A DNA stretch of 53,529 nt from Acidobacteriota bacterium (GTDB taxonomy: Bacteria > Acidobacteriota > UBA6911 > RPQK01 > JAJDTT01). The stretch lies in NCBI GenBank assembly GCA_022827025.1, contig JAJDTT010000280.1:1-53529 (forward strand), in the 5' to 3' direction. The notes under the pieces were generated by a model. The model was not told the origin of the DNA. It saw only the letters and a program-made list of their open reading frames with translations, and ran no database searches. Shown here piece after piece: positions 3,197 to 16,190 of the stretch; the stretch's first letter is position 1; every line of letters begins with the position of its first letter. A program made the translations under genes and the position numbers.

Positions 3197-3261
3197 ATGA
3201 CAATTGACAAGTCTTCCGTTAATTGTCATGATATATCGCGACACAGTTGTTAATTGTCATG
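3197..3261 (+). promoter_or_regulatory. Promoter with repeated ATGACAATT/AATTGTCAT operator-like sites
   Basis: A consensus -35 TTGACA (3204-3209) is followed after 17 nt by CATGAT (3227-3232), a plausible -10. GTTAATTGTCATG occurs twice, at 3218-3230 and 3249-3261, 31 bp apart. Its inverted arm ATGACAATT lies at 3197-3205. The first arm touches the -35, the second overlaps the spacer and -10, and the third includes the ATG of the DUF4143 gene. That geometry fits a repressor or autoregulatory site. It also implies a very short leader without a clear Shine-Dalgarno. Confidence 0.55.
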
Positions 3262-4458
3262 GATTCCCGGACCCGTCCCCTGGTTCCTCGTTACCTGAAC
3301 ATGACGGAAATTCTGGAGCACCGCTCCTGTTTTCTGTTCGGTCCGCGTCAGACCGGCAAGACTACGCTGATTGGTCAACAGTTCTCCGGCTATCCTACGT
3401 ACAGCTTGCTCGATCAGATGCTGTTCGTCCGTCTGTCGCGCAATCCTTCGCTGATCCGGCAAGAGCTCACCGGCGAAACCTCCATCGTTGTGATCGACGA
3501 AATCCAGAAAATGCCCCAGTTGCTCAACGAGGTGCAACTCATGATTCAGGAATCGGGTGTCCGGTTCCTTCTCACCGGATCAAGCACCCGGAGTCTGCGC
3601 CGGAAAGGCGTTAATCTGCTGGGCGGCCGCGCCCGATCGCGGGCTTTGCATCCGTTCGTTCGGACCGAACTCGGTGAGTGGTTCGATCTGGACCGGACCC
3701 TGGAGTACGGTCTCCTGCCGCCGATCTATTTCTCCGATTCTCCCGCTGAGGACCTGGCCGCGTATGCGGGCGACTATCTGAAGGAGGAGGTCGCGGCCGA
3801 GGCGATCGTCAGGAACATCGGCGCCTTCAGCCGGTTTCTGGAAACGGCGGGGCACGCACACGGGGAAATGATCAATTTCTCCGCCATGGCCAACGATTCT
3901 CAGGTGCCCACCTCCACCGTGCGCGAGTACTATGAGATCCTGAAAGACACGTTCATCGCCCACGAGGTGCCGGCGTTGACCGAGAGCCGGAAGCGCAAGG
4001 CGATCTCCACCTCGAAGTACTACCTGTTCGATATCGGTTTCGCCCGTCATCTGCAGGGGCGGCGGGGTCTGGCCCCCGGAACCGCCGAATACGGCAGCGC
4101 GTTCGAGAGCTACATATTCCAGGAAATCAAGGCCTTCTGTGACTACCATCGGCTTGAAACGCCCCGTTACTGGCGATCGAAATCGCAATTCGAGGTGGAT
4201 TTCGTTTTCGAGGATCTCGCGGTCGAGACGAAGGCAAAGAAGAACGTGAGCGCGCGAGATCTCAAGGGATTGCGAGCCCTGAGAGAGGAGAACCTGTTCA
4301 GTCGCTACATTCTGGTTTCCATGGAGACGGCAGCCAGGGTGGTGGACGGTATTTCGATCCTGCCCTGGTCCGAATTTCTGGACCGGCTGTGGGGAGGAGA
4401 ATGGGTCCGGGTCGGTTCTGAACCGACTTTTGGCCGACTTCCGGACAAGGTTCCCTGA
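3259..4458 (+). CDS. Orphan AAA-family ATPase with DUF4143 domain
   Basis: About 399 residues. Walker A is GPRQTGKTT (28-36) and Walker B is VVIDEIQ (about 77-83). An LLTGSS sensor-1-like strand and the GRARSRALHPF linker of this family follow. The C-terminal half carries the DUF4143 region, including YYLFDIGFARHL, and a PD-(D/E)xK-like stretch (EVDFVFEDLAVETKAKK). Such proteins are common standalone P-loop ATPases whose cellular role is unresolved; some are linked to defence or plasmid/toxin contexts. The ATG at 3259 was chosen because conserved sequence starts at once; an upstream TTG at 3247 is possible. Neighbours give no functional clue. Confidence 0.88.
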   Translation: MDSRTRPLVPRYLNMTEILEHRSCFLFGPRQTGKTTLIGQQFSGYPTYSLLDQMLFVRLSRNPSLIRQELTGETSIVVIDEIQKMPQLLNEVQLMIQESGVRFLLTGSSTRSLRRKGVNLLGGRARSRALHPFVRTELGEWFDLDRTLEYGLLPPIYFSDSPAEDLAAYAGDYLKEEVAAEAIVRNIGAFSRFLETAGHAHGEMINFSAMANDSQVPTSTVREYYEILKDTFIAHEVPALTESRKRKAISTSKYYLFDIGFARHLQGRRGLAPGTAEYGSAFESYIFQEIKAFCDYHRLETPRYWRSKSQFEVDFVFEDLAVETKAKKNVSARDLKGLRALREENLFSRYILVSMETAARVVDGISILPWSEFLDRLWGGEWVRVGSEPTFGRLPDKVP

Positions 4459-4654: not shown

Positions 4655-6403
4655 ATGAAACGCTCCGGTCCGCCCCCCCGGAGGGGCGTTCGCTACGAAC
4701 CTCCCGAGAAGCCGCCGCACCTGCTCTCCCTGGGACTCGGCCTGCAGCTCGTGATGCTGAATATCAGCGGAATCGTGCTGATCCCGAAGATCATCATCGA
4801 AGCCGCTGGCGCCGGCGACATCTACCTCTCCTGGGCCGTGTTCGCCGGACTCTGTGTCTGCGGCCTGATCACCATCATCCAGGCGATTCGAATCGGAAGG
4901 ATGGGAGCCGGCTACATCCTTCTGATGGGGACCTCCGGCACCTTCGTCGCCGTGTCGATCACCGCCTTGACTGAAGGAGGACCGGCTCTGTTGGCCACCT
5001 TGATCGTGGTCTCGTCCCTGTTTCAGTTCCTGTTGGGCTCCCGTCTCGTGCTGCTGCGCCGGGTGGTCACGCCGTTGGTGGCGGGGACGGTCATCATGCT
5101 GGTGGCGGTGACCATCATGCCCATCGCCTTCAAGATGCTGGCGCGGCCGCCCGACGGGGCCCCGCCGGCGGCCGCTCCCGTCAGCTTTGCGGTGACCCTC
5201 GTCTCGATGGCCGGTCTTGCCCTCTTCGCCACGGGGGCGTGGCGGCTCTGGGGACCGGTTCTGGGTGTGGTCGCGGGTTGCAGCGTAGCGGCGTACTACG
5301 GGATCTACGACACCACCCGCGTCGGCGCCGCCCCTTGGTTCGGGCTGCCCCCCAGCGGCTGGCCCGGCTTCGACCTGAGTTTCGGCCCGTCATTCTGGGC
5401 GTTGCTGCCGGTATTCATATTCGTGGTGGCCATCGATACGGTGAGGACCATCGGCGGCTCCATCAGCATCCAGCAGGTGTCCTGGCGGCAGCCGCGGGCC
5501 ACCGATTTCCGCTCGGTGCAGGGCACCATCTCGGCAAGCGGCTTGTCCAACCTCCTCTCGGGTCTGGTGGGGACGTTGCCCAATACGACCTACTCCTCCA
5601 GTATCTCGGTGGCCGCGCTCACGGGTGTGGCTGCCCGCAACGTGGGAGTCTGCGTCGGGATCCTCATCATCGTCTTCTCCTTGTTCCCCAAAGCGACGGC
5701 GGTGATCCTGGCCATTCCCGATCCGGTCGTTGCGGCCTACGTGGTCGTACTCATCTCGCTTCTGTTCGTCGTGGGAACGCGGATCGTGGTCCGTTACGGC
5801 CTGGACAGCCGCAAGAGCATCGTGGTCGGCGTTGCATTCTGGTTGGGGGTCGGTTTCCAGAACCGGCAGATCTTCTCGGAGCACCTGGGTGATGCAGTGG
5901 CTTCGATCCTGGAGAACGGGATCGCCGCCGGTGGACTGGCCGCGATCGTGATGACAGTCGCCCTGGAATTGTCCAAGCCCCGGCGGAGGAAGATCAAGAC
6001 GAAGCTGAGTATGGAGTCGTTGGCGGAGGTCGACGAGTTCGTTCAGCGATTCGCCAAGGACAAACATTGGGACGCGACCTCAACGGGACGGCTGCGCGCG
6101 GCGACGGAGGAGGCGATTGTGAGCCTGGTTCCGGATGAGAGGGATTCGGAGCCGGAAGACGCGCGGAACCTGGTCCTGTCGATGGGAGGCGATGGCCGGA
6201 AGGCGGAATTGGAGTTTATCGCCGCGGCGGGGGAGGGTAATCTTGAGGATAAGTTGGCGCTGTTGGGGCAGTGGGCTGGACAGTCGAGCGATCGTGAATT
6301 CTCGCTCCGGCTGCTGCGCCACTTCGCCACCTCCGTGAGTCACCGTCAGTATCACGACACCGACGTCGTGACGCTCCGTGTAGACGCGGACAAGGGATCA
6401 TGA
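4655..6403 (+). CDS. NCS2 (xanthine/uracil-type) permease fused to GHKL/RsbW-like domain, copy 1
   Basis: 582 residues from the ATG at 4655, which aligns exactly with the start of the next gene. Residues about 20-435 are an NCS2/SLC23-type transporter with many hydrophobic helices, including GTSGTFVAV and the NTTYSSSISVAALTGVAAR loop. Residues about 442-582 are cytoplasmic and resemble the anti-sigma-factor-like GHKL ATPase domain. They run from helix VDEFVQRFA, through EEAIVS in the N-box, to a C-terminal RLLRHFATSV...DTDVVTLRV. The N-box Asn is replaced by Ser (E486, S490), so ATP binding is doubtful. In the transporter, the TM8 substrate-binding Glu of NCS2 proteins is Arg (R264), and the QNxG motif is SSIS. 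The substrate cannot be inferred; a sensor or transceptor role is possible. An earlier in-frame start would add 41 unrelated residues. Confidence 0.82.
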   Translation: MKRSGPPPRRGVRYEPPEKPPHLLSLGLGLQLVMLNISGIVLIPKIIIEAAGAGDIYLSWAVFAGLCVCGLITIIQAIRIGRMGAGYILLMGTSGTFVAVSITALTEGGPALLATLIVVSSLFQFLLGSRLVLLRRVVTPLVAGTVIMLVAVTIMPIAFKMLARPPDGAPPAAAPVSFAVTLVSMAGLALFATGAWRLWGPVLGVVAGCSVAAYYGIYDTTRVGAAPWFGLPPSGWPGFDLSFGPSFWALLPVFIFVVAIDTVRTIGGSISIQQVSWRQPRATDFRSVQGTISASGLSNLLSGLVGTLPNTTYSSSISVAALTGVAARNVGVCVGILIIVFSLFPKATAVILAIPDPVVAAYVVVLISLLFVVGTRIVVRYGLDSRKSIVVGVAFWLGVGFQNRQIFSEHLGDAVASILENGIAAGGLAAIVMTVALELSKPRRRKIKTKLSMESLAEVDEFVQRFAKDKHWDATSTGRLRAATEEAIVSLVPDERDSEPEDARNLVLSMGGDGRKAELEFIAAAGEGNLEDKLALLGQWAGQSSDREFSLRLLRHFATSVSHRQYHDTDVVTLRVDADKGS

Positions 6404-6494
6404 CGCGCAGGCAGACGGGCGGCCCGGAATTCGGTCAGCTCCCATTTCGGAAACGATTCGGCAACGACGGGTTGCGACAAACAGGGATTAACTT

Positions 6495-8255
6495 ATGAAG
6501 CCATCCGCTCCAGCTCTTCAGAAAGATATTCGTTACGAACCCAACGAGCGGCCTCCGAACATGCTCTCCCTGGGACTCGGATTTCAGCTTGTCCTGCTCA
6601 CTATCGGCGGGATCGTCCTGACCCCGGCCATCATCATTCGCGCGGCCGGCGGGGAGGAGGCCTACATGACCTGGGCGGTCTTCGCGGGGCTCTGCGTCTG
6701 CGGCGTATCCACGATCCTCCAGGCGGCCCGTGTCGGAAGGTTCGGTTCCGGCTACGTCCTCCTCATGGGAACGTCCGGCGTTTTTATCGCCGTGTCGGTG
6801 ACGGCGCTGGCGGAAGGGGGACCCGGACTACTGGCAACCTTGGTGGTCGTCTCGTCGCTAATCCAATTTGTTCTGGCATCGCACTTGTCCTTGCTCCGGA
6901 GGGTCATCACGCCGTTGGTGGCGGGGACCGTGATCATGCTGATCTCGGTGACCATCATGCCCATTGCCTTCAACATGATGGCCGATGCGGCGGAAGGGGC
7001 CAGATCCTCCGGCGCTCCCGCCAGCGCGGCCGCGACCCTGCTCTGCACGGCGGGTCTGGCCCTTTTCGCCAAGGGGAGCTTGCGGCTCTGGGCACCCGTT
7101 ATCGGCGTTGCCACAGGCTGTATCGTTTCTTCCTATTACGGCCTCTACGACGTCGCGCGAGTCGCCGAAGCTCCGTGGTTCGGAGTTCCCACGAGCGGCT
7201 GGCCCGGACTCAACCTGAGTTTCGGCGCCTCATTCTGGACCTTGCTCCCGGTCTTCGTTCTGGTGACCGTAGTGGGCGCCATCGAAACGGTCGGAGATGC
7301 CATCGGGATCCAACAGGTCTCCTGGCGGAAGCCGCGGGCAACCGACTTTCGCGCGGTGCAAGGCGCCGTTGGAGCGGACGGCGTGGGCAACCTCCTGTCG
7401 GGCCTGATGGGGACCGTGCCCAATACGACCTACTCCACCAGCATCGCCGTCACCGAGCTTACCGGCGTCGCCGCCCGATCCGTGGGGGTCTGCATCGGAA
7501 TCCTGTTCTTCTCCTTCGCCTTTCTGCCTAAAGTGACGGCGGCGATACTGGCCATTCCGGACCCGGTCGTCGCAGCCTACCTCCTGGTCCTGTTGTCCGT
7601 ACTCTTCGTCCTGGGCATGAGGATCGTGGCGCAGGACGGCATCGACAGCCGCAAGAGCGTGGTGGTCGGATTGTCTTTCTGGCTTGGCGTCGGTTTTCAG
7701 AACCAGCAGATCTTCGCCGACTACATGGACGGCATCTTGGCGACCATCCTTGGAAACGGCATGGCGGCCGGCGGACTGGCCGCCATCGTGATGACGGTGG
7801 CTCTGGATCTGGCCAAGCCGCGGAGGAGGCGAATCAAGGCCATGCTCAGCGTCGATTCGCTGCCGGAGATCGACGGGTTCATCTGCAAGTTCGCCGATGC
7901 CAAGGGTTGGAACGAGGCGTCGACGGACCGGCTCCGGGCCGCGGCGGAGGAATCGGTCCTGAGCCTGGTCCCGGATGAGGAGGCGCCGGAAGAGGAGGAA
8001 GCCCGGCACCTGCTGCTCCTGGTCCGCGGGGACGGCCGGGGAGCGGAGTTGGAATTCATCGCTTCGGCAGTCGAGGGGAATCTCGAGGACCGTCTGGCGC
8101 TCCTGGGCCAGTGGGCGAGGCGATCGGTCGACCGCGAGTTCTCGCTCCGGCTGCTTCGCCATTACGCGAGTTCGGTGCGCCACCGCCAGTACCACGACAC
8201 CGACGTGGTGACGGTGCGGGTGGAAGCGGACGCACCAGCGACGAGTGGCGGCTGA
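6495..8255 (+). CDS. NCS2 permease fused to GHKL/RsbW-like domain, copy 2
   Basis: 586 residues, a close tandem paralogue of the preceding gene and colinear over its whole length, with AGGG ahead of the ATG. It has the same architecture: NCS2 transporter (about 20-435), then a GHKL/RsbW-like tail (about 440-580) with E486 and Ser490 in place of the N-box Asn. Unlike copy 1 it keeps the TM8 acidic residue (E264 in AIETVGDAIG), so it may be the transport-competent partner. The TM10 signature is also unusual (TTYSTSIAV). The gap to copy 1 is 91 bp, which fits a two-gene operon. Co-assembly of a transporting and a non-transporting subunit is an inference. No purine or pyrimidine catabolic genes are adjacent. 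Confidence 0.83.
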   Translation: MKPSAPALQKDIRYEPNERPPNMLSLGLGFQLVLLTIGGIVLTPAIIIRAAGGEEAYMTWAVFAGLCVCGVSTILQAARVGRFGSGYVLLMGTSGVFIAVSVTALAEGGPGLLATLVVVSSLIQFVLASHLSLLRRVITPLVAGTVIMLISVTIMPIAFNMMADAAEGARSSGAPASAAATLLCTAGLALFAKGSLRLWAPVIGVATGCIVSSYYGLYDVARVAEAPWFGVPTSGWPGLNLSFGASFWTLLPVFVLVTVVGAIETVGDAIGIQQVSWRKPRATDFRAVQGAVGADGVGNLLSGLMGTVPNTTYSTSIAVTELTGVAARSVGVCIGILFFSFAFLPKVTAAILAIPDPVVAAYLLVLLSVLFVLGMRIVAQDGIDSRKSVVVGLSFWLGVGFQNQQIFADYMDGILATILGNGMAAGGLAAIVMTVALDLAKPRRRRIKAMLSVDSLPEIDGFICKFADAKGWNEASTDRLRAAAEESVLSLVPDEEAPEEEEARHLLLLVRGDGRGAELEFIASAVEGNLEDRLALLGQWARRSVDREFSLRLLRHYASSVRHRQYHDTDVVTVRVEADAPATSGG

Positions 8256-12210: not shown

Positions 12211-13788
12211 ATGATCCGGGCACTGAGTCAATCGAATAAATTCTGTTTTCTCCTGCTCCTCTTACTCGTTGTGGCGAGCTGCTCCTCCAACGTCCGGCGG
12301 GAGATGGAGGATGCGGTGGAGGCCGGCGAGGCTTCCTATGTGGAAGACCTGATCGTGGATGGGGCCGATCCCAATCGCGTCTATGGCGGCAAGTCGCTGC
12401 TGGTCAGGGCGGCCGAGCAGGGACATGCCGGGGTGATCCAGGCCCTGGTGGCGGGTGGCGCCGATCTGGCCTGGGCGGATCCGGACGGAAAAACGGCGCT
12501 GATGCATGCCGTCGAAAAGGGGCACCTGGAAGCCGCGGACGCGCTCTTGGGACTGGGAGGCAAACTGGACGGCGAGGACCGCCGGGGAGAGCGGCCTCTG
12601 GCGTTGGCGGCCGCCGAAGGACAGATGGCGATGGTGGAATTCCTCTTGGAGAAGGGGGCCGAAGTGGGGGCCAAAGACGCCGCGGGCCGGACTCCCATCA
12701 TGCGGGCCGCTGAGGAGGGGCATACGGCCGTGATCGAGGCTTTGGAAGGGGCCGGGGCCAAGGTCAAGGACTCGGACAACTCGGGCCGAACCCCTCTGCT
12801 CTTCGCGTCCACCGGCGGACATACGGCAATCGTCTCCGACTTTCTCTCCAAGGGGGCCGACGTCAATGCCTACACCAAGATGGGGTGGACTCCCCTCATG
12901 GTGGCATCGGGCGAGGGTCACCTGGAGACGGGGAAGGTTCTTTTGGAGAAGAAGGCCCGGGTCGACTACAAGGACGCGGACAAGCGCACCGCCCTGCTCT
13001 GGGCGGCGGGTCGAGGGCAGACTGCCATGATCGAGCTTCTCCTGGAGAATGGCGCCCAACTGGATGCCATGGACAACAATGGCCGCAACGCCGTCTGGCT
13101 CGCCGCCAGTCACGGCAGCGACGAGACGTTGACGCTGTTGCTGGAGAAGGGGCGCAAGAAATGGCCGCGGTCTCTTCACTATTTCCGGGACGCCGGCGAC
13201 AGACGGGGCCAGACCCCGCTCATGGCGGCGGCGGAAGGGGGTCACATCGGGAGCATGAATCTGCTCATCGACTCGGGTTCCAGAATCAGGACCCGCGCCC
13301 GGCGGTCCGGATGGACGGCCCTTCTCATCGCCGCCAACCAGGGTAAGACCGAAGCGGCCAAGCTCCTGATGTCCAAGGGGGCCAACGTGAACGCCAAGAC
13401 CAAGGATGGTCTTCCGTGCTTGATGCTGGCTGTCAACGAAGGGCACGCCGACACGGTGGAGGCCCTGATTCAAGGTGGAGCCCGGGTCAACTTTCGTCTC
13501 AACGCCGATTGGACTCCGTTGATGCACGCGGCATCGGAGGGCAGGGAAAAGATCGTGCGTTCGCTGTTGGCGGGAGGCGCCGACGTCACGGCCACGAACT
13601 ACAACGGCTGGACGGCTCTCATGCTGGCGGTCGCCGAAAAGGAACCCGAATGCGTCCAGGCCTTGATCGAGGGCGGTGCCGACGTCAACGTCAAGGGAAA
13701 CGATGGCCGGAGCGCGCTGAAGCTGGCGGTCCAGCAGGGTTACGGACGAATCATGGGGATTCTCACCGAGGCCGGAGCCACGCAGTAG
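12211..13788 (+). CDS. Ankyrin-repeat lipoprotein
   Basis: 525 residues. The N-terminus is a lipoprotein signal: an LLLLLLVVASC lipobox with Cys at about residue 24. The rest is a nearly continuous run of roughly 14 ankyrin repeats of about 33 residues, each with the G.TPLM.AA..GH...V..LL..GA pattern. No catalytic domain is visible. It is predicted to be membrane-anchored on the periplasmic side, or surface-exposed, and to bind a protein partner. It follows the iron operon by 98 bp but has its own RBS and possible promoter. The conserved repeats make the exact number approximate. Confidence 0.9.
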   Translation: MIRALSQSNKFCFLLLLLLVVASCSSNVRREMEDAVEAGEASYVEDLIVDGADPNRVYGGKSLLVRAAEQGHAGVIQALVAGGADLAWADPDGKTALMHAVEKGHLEAADALLGLGGKLDGEDRRGERPLALAAAEGQMAMVEFLLEKGAEVGAKDAAGRTPIMRAAEEGHTAVIEALEGAGAKVKDSDNSGRTPLLFASTGGHTAIVSDFLSKGADVNAYTKMGWTPLMVASGEGHLETGKVLLEKKARVDYKDADKRTALLWAAGRGQTAMIELLLENGAQLDAMDNNGRNAVWLAASHGSDETLTLLLEKGRKKWPRSLHYFRDAGDRRGQTPLMAAAEGGHIGSMNLLIDSGSRIRTRARRSGWTALLIAANQGKTEAAKLLMSKGANVNAKTKDGLPCLMLAVNEGHADTVEALIQGGARVNFRLNADWTPLMHAASEGREKIVRSLLAGGADVTATNYNGWTALMLAVAEKEPECVQALIEGGADVNVKGNDGRSALKLAVQQGYGRIMGILTEAGATQ

Positions 13789-13891: not shown

Positions 13892-14950
13892 TCAGCTCGG
13901 ATCCCGGAACGTCAGCACCCTCTTGGGGTTCTCCACGAAGATCTGGTGGAGGGCCTTGTCGTCCACGCCCAGGTTCTTCAGCCGGGGCACGATGTTCTCC
14001 AGGATGTGTCCGTAGCCGTTCCCGCCGTAGGTGACCAGGTCGCACTGGAAGCAGCAGTCCTGAGCCGCCGTGACGGACCCGGCGTAGCCGTCGGCCACCA
14101 GGGTGGCGATGATGTGGTTCCGGAGGTCGTCGGGCGGATGCTGGCGGCCGGCGCCGGCGAAGTACATTTCCCGTCCGTAGGTGTCGAATCCCAGCATGCA
14201 CCCGGTGTCGGCCAGGCGCTTGTAGCGGTCCATGTCCTCGCGGTAGCGGTTCTCGATGTGGCTCATGATGACCCGGTCGGGTTGGACCCCCTCTTCCTTC
14301 AGCAGCTCGATGAGGGAGAGGGGAGAGTCGGGATCGTGGCCGGGGTGGACCGAGATGGGGGCGCCGGTCTCCAGGTGCGCGCGGGCGCCCGCCCGGAAGG
14401 TCTTCTCCTCATCGGGGTGCAAGGGCCAGGAAGCCCCCAGCTCTCCGATGAGGCCGGAGAGGACGTCGGTTCCGTGGCCGCCGCGGGTGAGGTCTCCCAC
14501 GATCTCCTCCTGAATGTTCTCGATGGTCTTGGAGGCCATGTCCGGCGGATGGGAGGGGTAGATGTAGTATCCGCTCCCGGCGATCACGTGCAATCCGGTC
14601 CTCTCGGAGATCCTCCTGAGACCGGCCGGATTGGGCTCGATGCCGTTGATGGTGCAGTCCACCATGGCTCGTCCGCCCAGGTCCATGTAGAGTTCGACCT
14701 CCGAGGCGATGACGTCATCGTCGTAGGACCGGAGGTTGGGCCAGGAGCTCATGGTGTTGTTCCGGACCCAGCCCAGCGTGGACAGGCTCAGTTCCCGGTC
14801 CGTGAGCCGTTTCCCCTTCTCGTCCTGAGGCGGCTGGTAATAGCAGGTCAGGTCGAAATAGAGGTGCTCGTGAATCAGGGTCACCCCCAGGTCTTCGGGT
14901 GCGATGGGGCCGGTCACCGTCTGAATCTTGCCTCGTAGCGCTTCGATCAT
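13892..14950 (-). CDS. Phosphotriesterase-like metal-dependent hydrolase
   Basis: About 352 residues from the ATG at 14950, preceded by GGAGAGGAC. It is a TIM-barrel amidohydrolase of the phosphotriesterase homology group. HEH (27-29, TLIHEHLYF) binds the first metal. A Glu in IGELGAS is the likely bridging ligand, replacing carboxylated Lys. Later ligands are H in SVHPG, H in SHIEN and D in GFDTYG. Such enzymes are mostly lactonases or esterases of unknown natural substrate. It is the last gene of a minus-strand run after MFS, EutA-like and M24 genes. It may hydrolyse a product of that pathway. The longer upstream reading frame overlaps the M24 stop and is not needed. Confidence 0.85.
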   Translation of the reverse strand: MIEALRGKIQTVTGPIAPEDLGVTLIHEHLYFDLTCYYQPPQDEKGKRLTDRELSLSTLGWVRNNTMSSWPNLRSYDDDVIASEVELYMDLGGRAMVDCTINGIEPNPAGLRRISERTGLHVIAGSGYYIYPSHPPDMASKTIENIQEEIVGDLTRGGHGTDVLSGLIGELGASWPLHPDEEKTFRAGARAHLETGAPISVHPGHDPDSPLSLIELLKEEGVQPDRVIMSHIENRYREDMDRYKRLADTGCMLGFDTYGREMYFAGAGRQHPPDDLRNHIIATLVADGYAGSVTAAQDCCFQCDLVTYGGNGYGHILENIVPRLKNLGVDDKALHQIFVENPKRVLTFRDPS

Positions 14951-15026
14951 GCTGTCCTCTCCGGTTGTCTTGATTTTGGGTTGGTTTTTGGCCGTCTCCA
15001 GCCGCTGAGTCCCGGGTCCGTTTCCG

Positions 15027-16190
15027 CTAACTTCCAAATCGGATTTGTTGCAGCCGCGCCGGAGTCCGGGCCAGGGCCTCGGTTTCGTCCTCTCCGATCA
15101 GGATGGTCTGACTCAGATTCACACCGTACTCGCCGTACTTGCGGACCGACATGGGGAGATGGAAGGTCATGCCGGCTTCCAGCGGCCCGGGATTGTCGGT
15201 GCGCATGAGAAAGTCCAGCTCTTCGATCCAGCTTGGCGGGTAGCCGATTCCCACCGGATAGCCGAAGTTGTAGTGGAAGACGTGGCCGGGAAGGACCGGC
15301 TCCAGGATCGCCAGGGCCGTTCGGGCCACGTGAGCGGCCTCGACGCCGGGGCGCGCCTCCTCCCGGATGCAGGCGAGAGCCGCGCGGCCGGCCGCCTCTA
15401 CGCGTTTCATGGCGTCCGACGGCGGTCCCAGAACCGCGGTGCGCATGAGGGGCGCCACGTAGCGCCGCACCTGGGCCGTCAGCTCCAGGAAGACGGTCTG
15501 GCCGCGCCGTAGCGGCAGCCCCATGAAGGTGCTGTGGGCGCTGCCCGCACGGTAGCCGGCGGCCACGATGGGTCCCCAGCAGACGGTGTCGCTGCCATTG
15601 CCGTACATGGCCTCCATGATCGCCGCGGCCACGTCCGAATCCCGTTGGCCCTCCTGCATGGCGGCGTAGGCCGCCTCCACCCCCAGATCGGTCAGGATGG
15701 CGGCCCGGCGCATGCAGGCGATCTCGGCCGGCGACTTGACCAGCCGGGAACGTTCCACCACGCCGAAGGGATCCTCGATCCGCAAGTCGGACAATTCCGC
15801 TGCCAATCGCCGGTAGTGGTCCGGCGAAACCGCCCGGTTGCGCCGCTCCAGGCCCAGATTCCGGACCTTCAGCCGGCGCACCGCGTCCAGAGTGACTTGG
15901 AGCGGGTCTTCGAACGGCCCGTAGAACACCTGGCCCCGATGCCAGCAGGAGTTCGCGGCCCGGGCCTCCTCGAAATGGGAAGTGACCAGAATCGGGTCGC
16001 CGCCGGCGGGGACCAGAAGGCATTGGTAGTCGGAGAGGTTCTCCGTGTCCATCCCCGAGAGGTAGAAAACGTTGTGGGGACTGAACAGGACCAGAGCGTC
16101 CAGGGATCGCGACGCCATGGATTCGTGGACCCTTTCCAGGCGGCGCCGGTACTCGGCGACTTCGAAGGCGGGCTCTCTGGGGATCGGCAT
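15027..16190 (-). CDS. M24 family creatinase/ectoine-hydrolase-like enzyme without metal ligands
   Basis: 387 residues with AAGGAG 9 nt before the ATG. It has a creatinase N-terminal domain (about 1-150; DALVLFSPHNVFYLSGMDT) and a C-terminal pita-bread M24 domain. In metallo-aminopeptidases the first metal Asp pair lies in D-L-G...D-x-T-R-T. Here the stretch reads FLELTAQVRRYVAPLMRT, with Glu and Pro instead. The late Glu sites read FHLPMS and VNLSQT. A GIGYPPSW segment fits the non-metal creatinase/DoeA branch. It therefore probably cleaves a C-N bond in a small molecule rather than Xaa-Pro peptides. The next gene upstream is EutA-like, as in ectoine utilisation clusters, but the other ectoine genes are absent. 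Confidence 0.82.
   Translation of the reverse strand: MPIPREPAFEVAEYRRRLERVHESMASRSLDALVLFSPHNVFYLSGMDTENLSDYQCLLVPAGGDPILVTSHFEEARAANSCWHRGQVFYGPFEDPLQVTLDAVRRLKVRNLGLERRNRAVSPDHYRRLAAELSDLRIEDPFGVVERSRLVKSPAEIACMRRAAILTDLGVEAAYAAMQEGQRDSDVAAAIMEAMYGNGSDTVCWGPIVAAGYRAGSAHSTFMGLPLRRGQTVFLELTAQVRRYVAPLMRTAVLGPPSDAMKRVEAAGRAALACIREEARPGVEAAHVARTALAILEPVLPGHVFHYNFGYPVGIGYPPSWIEELDFLMRTDNPGPLEAGMTFHLPMSVRKYGEYGVNLSQTILIGEDETEALARTPARLQQIRFGS

Follow-up and report, generated by a model that had tools for sequence, protein, structure and literature searches.

Introduction

The transporter families SLC23 (NCS2/NAT; PbuX, UraA, UapA) and SLC26 (SulP) are structural siblings, and why SLC26 proteins bear STAS, one of the two halves of the toolbox for sigma partner switching, is still debated. 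A 2019 study described the SLC4 and SLC23 families as being without carboxy-terminal domains (PMC6497670). Here we describe two tandem genes, P0001 and P0002, from an Acidobacteriota bacterium (contig JAJDTT010000280.1 of assembly GCA_022827025.1; the window is the whole stretch of 53,529 nucleotides that was analysed), each of which encodes an SLC23-type transporter followed by a C-terminal tail with the predicted fold of an anti-sigma kinase. These proteins resemble SLC26/SulP in their expected 7+7 transmembrane (TM) fold class and in having a C-terminal cytoplasmic domain from the same toolbox. They differ in the half that they carry: SulP proteins have the antagonist side (STAS), whereas the tailed SLC23 family appears to have the anti-sigma (RsbW-like) side. 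A Pfam scan found no STAS match in P0001 or P0002.

Transporters fused to a GHKL-bearing signalling tail are also known from the SLC5-STAC kinases (CbrA, CrbS, RpuS), and CbrA combines histidine transport and a kinase in one protein (PMC7096432, PMC13022988). However, these proteins are built on another transporter fold and pair a true ATP-active histidine kinase with a response regulator, whereas the tails of the window are predicted to be dead RsbW-type domains. In the Pfam scan neither P0001 nor P0002 matched an SSF transporter, a HisKA/DHp domain or an active HATPase_c domain.

Results and Discussion

P0001 (4655..6403, + strand, 582 residues) and P0002 (6495..8255, + strand, 586 residues) both begin with ATG, lie in tandem with 91 bp between them and encode proteins that are 66% identical. 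An earlier note on this DNA, written from the letters and open reading frames, had described both proteins as an NCS2 transporter followed by a tail of about 140 residues. The Pfam family Xan_ur_permease (PF00860) indeed spans residues 28-400 of both (4736..5854 and 6576..7697, + strand; E 2e-44 and 6e-51), with scores of 152 and 174 bits that lie above the gathering score of 27, and a tail of about 143-145 residues follows the transporter domain. Among NCBIfam models the xanthine permease PbuX gave the best score for this domain, with the NCBIfam cut-offs missed; the ncs2 superfamily model TIGR00801 also stayed below its cut-off (180 and 198 bits vs 291.8). Matches in the PDB were UapA, UraA and SLC23A1. 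Since the tails and the gene pairing are both kept in sister genomes, a chance resemblance of open reading frames can be ruled out, and an assembly artefact is ruled out because the arrangement is conserved in many genomes.

The fold of the tail was examined on P0002 (residues 440-586; 7812..8252, + strand). An AlphaFold2 model computed with 13 relatives in the input reached a pLDDT (confidence score) of 75 and a pTM (predicted TM-score) of 0.71, and shows one strand, two helices, two strands, a lid, a helix and two further strands. The best Foldseek matches to this model in the PDB were all anti-sigma kinases, namely UsfX, RsbW and SpoIIAB (E 2e-7 to 5e-4). Superposition by VIA-align gave a Z score of 15.4 for RsbW (114 residues, root-mean-square deviation 2.2), 14.3 for UsfX and 13.5 for SpoIIAB, as opposed to 7.2 at most for the CA domains of ordinary histidine kinases, in a list that leaves folds ranked lower by Foldseek possible. 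The corresponding tail of P0001 (residues 440-582; 5972..6400, + strand) is assigned by homology with the modelled tail of P0002 and by profile matches.

Profile comparisons are less uniform. The tail of P0001 covers nearly the whole HATPase_c_2 profile below threshold (E 0.011, 16.1 vs 27.4 bits), and that of P0002 has no useful Pfam match, HATPase_c_2 included. The same profile matches the tails of 6 of 20 relatives (best E 1.5e-5), and the Pfam model itself picks up tails in two further genomes (G222 and G009). When all tails were compared by hhalign with 18 canonical RsbW-like proteins of the same genomes, the two alignments matched over 119 columns (E 5e-6, probability 86%). A search of PDB sequences with the profile of the tail alignment returned nothing up to E 10, so that the fold call rests on the structure together with weak profile hits. 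On this basis the model confirms that the tail is predicted to have the fold specifically of anti-sigma kinases (RsbW/UsfX/SpoIIAB), which bears out what the earlier note had called by eye an RsbW-type GHKL domain.

The residues with which such a domain would hold ATP are gone. Position 490, which aligns to the N-box Asn, is Ser in P0001 (6122..6124, + strand) and in P0002 (7962..7964, + strand), as had been noticed before; relatives have Ser, Thr, Leu, Ile, Tyr or Phe there and in no case Asn. The G1 Asp (Asp-x-Gly) and the G2 glycines (Gly-x-Gly) are likewise lost in all aligned members. Because these residues are missing in every relative, the tail is almost certainly ATP-dead as judged from its alignment, a stronger statement than the probable loss first suspected. 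In the 20 members compared, however, the Glu pair of the N-box never varies, nor do certain positions held by Arg, Asn, His, Gln and Asp. The ratio of nonsynonymous to synonymous substitution rates (dN/dS) between orthologues is 0.12-0.22 for the tail, similar to 0.13-0.19 for the transporter domain, which shows that the tail is maintained by purifying selection and is not decaying. The tails share with RsbW, SpoIIAB and UsfX (HATPase_c_2) the predicted fold, the order of strands and helices and the position of the N-box Glu, but differ from them in being anchored in the membrane by a transporter and in having lost the ATP motifs.

Tails of this kind are not restricted to the window. They were found in 21 of 396 Acidobacteriota genomes at E 1e-3, two of the 21 being weak, and relatives also occur in metagenome-assembled genomes of Bryobacterales and Latescibacteria. 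Across 297 genomes, NCS2 proteins at least 49% identical to P0002 had reading frames long enough for the tail, bar two split genes, and the next NCS2 protein was only 32% identical. The window's genome itself contains a third paralogue at another place. There is also a second tailed clade, distantly related, from a different acidobacterial genus (L161, L162) and from plasmids of Azospirillum, Thiodictyon and Pseudoroseomonas, where the proteins are annotated only as 'solute carrier family 23 protein'. Tails of this distant clade match either HATPase_c_2 (5e-4) or the ChpT-like family HPTransfase, the latter with the Azospirillum tail at E 3e-4, just under the cut-off. ChpT-type histidine phosphotransferases also contain a GHKL domain, one that is not known to have retained ATP binding. 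They differ from the tailed family by a helical phosphotransfer part with a phospho-His, none of which was seen in the family described here. Scans of viral contigs found no relatives, and one tail searched alone (L064) had no plasmid match. On Thiodictyon syntrophicum plasmid pTs417 two divergent tailed SLC23 genes stand side by side (L204:1719-5728), which gives an independent example of twin genes; in each, the TM8 acid position discussed below is Asp.

A tree built from only the transporter domain places a branch with support of 100/99 between 14 tail-less NCS2 proteins and 29 tailed ones, the latter sampled from Acidobacteriota, Latescibacterota, Alpha- and Gammaproteobacteria. The architecture that the earlier note had proposed to look for is therefore present in all four of these groups. 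Acidobacteriota contributed members to the tail-less set, as did plasmids of Pseudomonadota, Fusobacteriota, Bacillota and a haloarchaeon; C22-type genes, which look like AzgA-type permeases, were dropped from the set since they have no significant similarity to P0002. The topology fits an origin of all tails in a single fusion event, which, given the small tail-less sample, is compatible with the tree rather than proven by it.

The tailed proteins also differ from NCS2/NAT transporters at the transport site. UapA Glu356, which we take to be the TM8 counterpart of UraA Glu241, marks the first of two positions of interest. UraA needs Glu241 in TM8 and Glu290 in TM10, and acts as a dimer that keeps full activity with one E241A protomer (PMC5539350). 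At the TM8 position the 29 tailed proteins have E (10), D (7), R (5), K (4) or Q (3), so that an acid is present in 17 and absent in 12, P0001 among them, whereas all 14 tail-less proteins have Glu. Four switches between acid and non-acid residues map onto the tree. P0002 keeps Glu264 (7284..7286, + strand), whereas P0001 (position 264; 5444..5446, + strand) and its orthologues have Arg. In TM10 the signature Gln/Glu of the NAT motif (Gln/Glu-Asn-x-Gly), as read from the motif strings of the alignment, is found in 0 of 29 tailed and 14 of 14 tail-less proteins; at position 315 its place is taken by Ser in P0001 (5597..5599, + strand) and by Thr in P0002 (7437..7439, + strand). Hence the likeness to PbuX, UraA and UapA, as seen in the PF00860 match, the NCBIfam score and the PDB matches, is qualified by the C-terminal domain, by the missing TM10 residue and, for P0001, by the missing TM8 acid. 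A P0001 devoid of the UraA-type carboxylate would fit a sensing or helper role. Since the UraA dimer with one E241A protomer is fully active, a dead partner subunit would be workable, and by this analogy an active/inactive subunit pair of P0002 and P0001 is plausible.

An indirect link to partner switching comes from one subgroup of the tailed family in the acidobacterial genus g78. In 13 of 13 species the tailed NCS2 gene is followed on the same strand by a GPP34 gene and a STAS gene, and an HMGL-like gene precedes the tailed member wherever the fetched stretch extends that far. The motif RYMSSAGLRVVL of this STAS protein is identical in all 13 and contains the Ser expected of phosphorylatable antagonists of the RsbV/SpoIIAA type. 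This gene supports a connection of the tailed family to partner switching and is the strongest, if indirect, evidence for it. The intervening gene codes for a bacterial GPP34 (GOLPH3-like) protein in all 13 species (for instance L065:7660-8331 and L069:6329-7003). Near the Azospirillum member, at a distance of two genes, there is also a sigma/ChrR pair, which was rejected as evidence because it lies on the opposite strand and is a single case.

Our best reading is that P0001 and P0002 are a transceptor or a regulated transporter with a pseudo-anti-sigma docking tail. We assign a probability of about one half to the following mechanism. The membrane part would bind a solute, probably other than a classical nucleobase, and its solute-bound conformation would be relayed to the cytoplasmic tail. 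Without need of ATP, the tail would offer STAS (anti-anti-sigma-type) proteins a surface to dock on, and whether it holds or releases them would depend on the substrate status, so that it would compete with the genuine RsbW-type kinases of the cell. A partner-switching circuit would thereby receive the substrate status or, in the opposite direction, the transporter would be gated by STAS binding. The window's genome encodes STAS, SpoIIE and canonical RsbW-like genes elsewhere, so that the tail would be able to compete for STAS. P0001 and P0002 would probably dimerise, each with itself or one with the other; P0002 would provide the transport-critical TM8 Glu and P0001, with its Arg, would act as a sensing or helper subunit. 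As we infer it, the scheme comprises substrate sensing, STAS docking and heterodimers, and may extend to a sigma-factor output. The transceptor proposed in the earlier note has gained one independent support, the linked STAS gene, and is a reasonable hypothesis. A more tentative generalisation, which we hold to be somewhat doubtful, is a broad class of transceptors in which an SLC23 solute sensor would use its dead tail to titrate STAS proteins without phosphorylation and twin genes would supply transporting and sensing subunits.

Several points weigh against STAS docking. A STAS gene lies two genes downstream in g78, but the window's contig contains no STAS gene, and none was seen near members outside g78, though the 13-species screen used a g78 query only. 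Confined to one genus, the linkage counts as a single evolutionary observation. A full-length AlphaFold2 prediction with 16 relatives gave a pLDDT of 50 and is unusable for placing the tail relative to the membrane domain. The tail could also regulate its own transporter intramolecularly or serve for dimerisation.

This last idea leads to the main rival, which we consider unlikely but between which and docking the sequence cannot choose: the tail may autoregulate or stabilise the dimer of a working transporter, in the manner of the STAS domain of SLC26/SulP and with no signalling output. RsbW/SpoIIAB-fold domains form dimers, and the members at least 49% identical to P0002 retain the tail. SLC26, which shares its 7+7 TM fold with SLC23, needs STAS for full transport (PMC6497670), and UraA too functions as a dimer (PMC5539350). 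What speaks for docking instead is the linked STAS gene conserved in g78, and the repeated loss of the TM8 carboxylate in proteins that keep the tail would be odd if the tail served only transport. It is improbable, to a greater degree, that the tail is a ligand module in which an effector, either anionic or similar to a nucleobase, occupies the vacated ATP pocket or the conserved Arg/His/Gln/Asp cluster and so gates the transporter. In favour of this, conservation has outlived the ATP signature, and the C-terminal part of the tail has unchanging Arg, His, His, Gln and Asp positions; these residues, however, belong to the helix and hairpin that follow the lid and may equally form a protein interface. 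A still active Ser/Thr kinase with non-canonical ATP-binding residues is highly improbable and was rejected: the invariant Glu pair does sit at the catalytic Glu position of SpoIIAB, but the N-box Asn, the G1 Asp and the G2 glycines are missing in every member.

Some neighbouring genes were recorded as well, and several tailed members outside the g78 arrangement have transporter genes beside them. The third paralogue of the window's genome (G000:C292:6165-7940, L070) carries Gln in place of the TM8 acid and shares about 10 bp with the next gene, which encodes a transporter of the DASS type (Na_sulph_symp); this overlap of a Gln-type gene with a DASS-type gene is seen in two genera (also L061:6162-7961, L073:7819-9594). 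A Lys-type tailed gene and a TRAP DctP gene have about 10 bp in common (L066:5986-8796), and an SSF symporter lies near another tailed member. In the window, an AAA_14/DUF4143 ATPase gene (3247-4458, + strand) is located directly upstream of the pair; it is present in the COS4 relative (L008) and was not seen among the gene calls of genome G003 (L072). Further downstream lie a gene for an ankyrin-repeat-like protein with an N-terminal lipoprotein-type signal, as judged by eye (12211-13788, + strand; also in G003, L072:16279-17853), and one that by eye looks like a phosphotriesterase-family amidohydrolase (13892-15037, - strand; LIHEHLYFD motif).

Conclusions

In the open-access papers searched we found no description of an SLC23-anti-sigma fusion. 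The tailed SLC23 proteins, which the annotation 'solute carrier family 23 protein' conceals, seem to form a bacterial transporter family not described before, one whose members may pass information to a switch in gene control. They add to the CbrA-type kinases a second type of fusion between a transporter and a GHKL domain in bacteria. An SLC23 clade with an inactivated anti-sigma half, sometimes beside a STAS gene, makes it directly testable why transporters of the UraA fold gain domains from partner switching. If the broader reading as a class of transceptors is true, solute availability would be coupled directly to partner switching, with phosphorylation bypassed.

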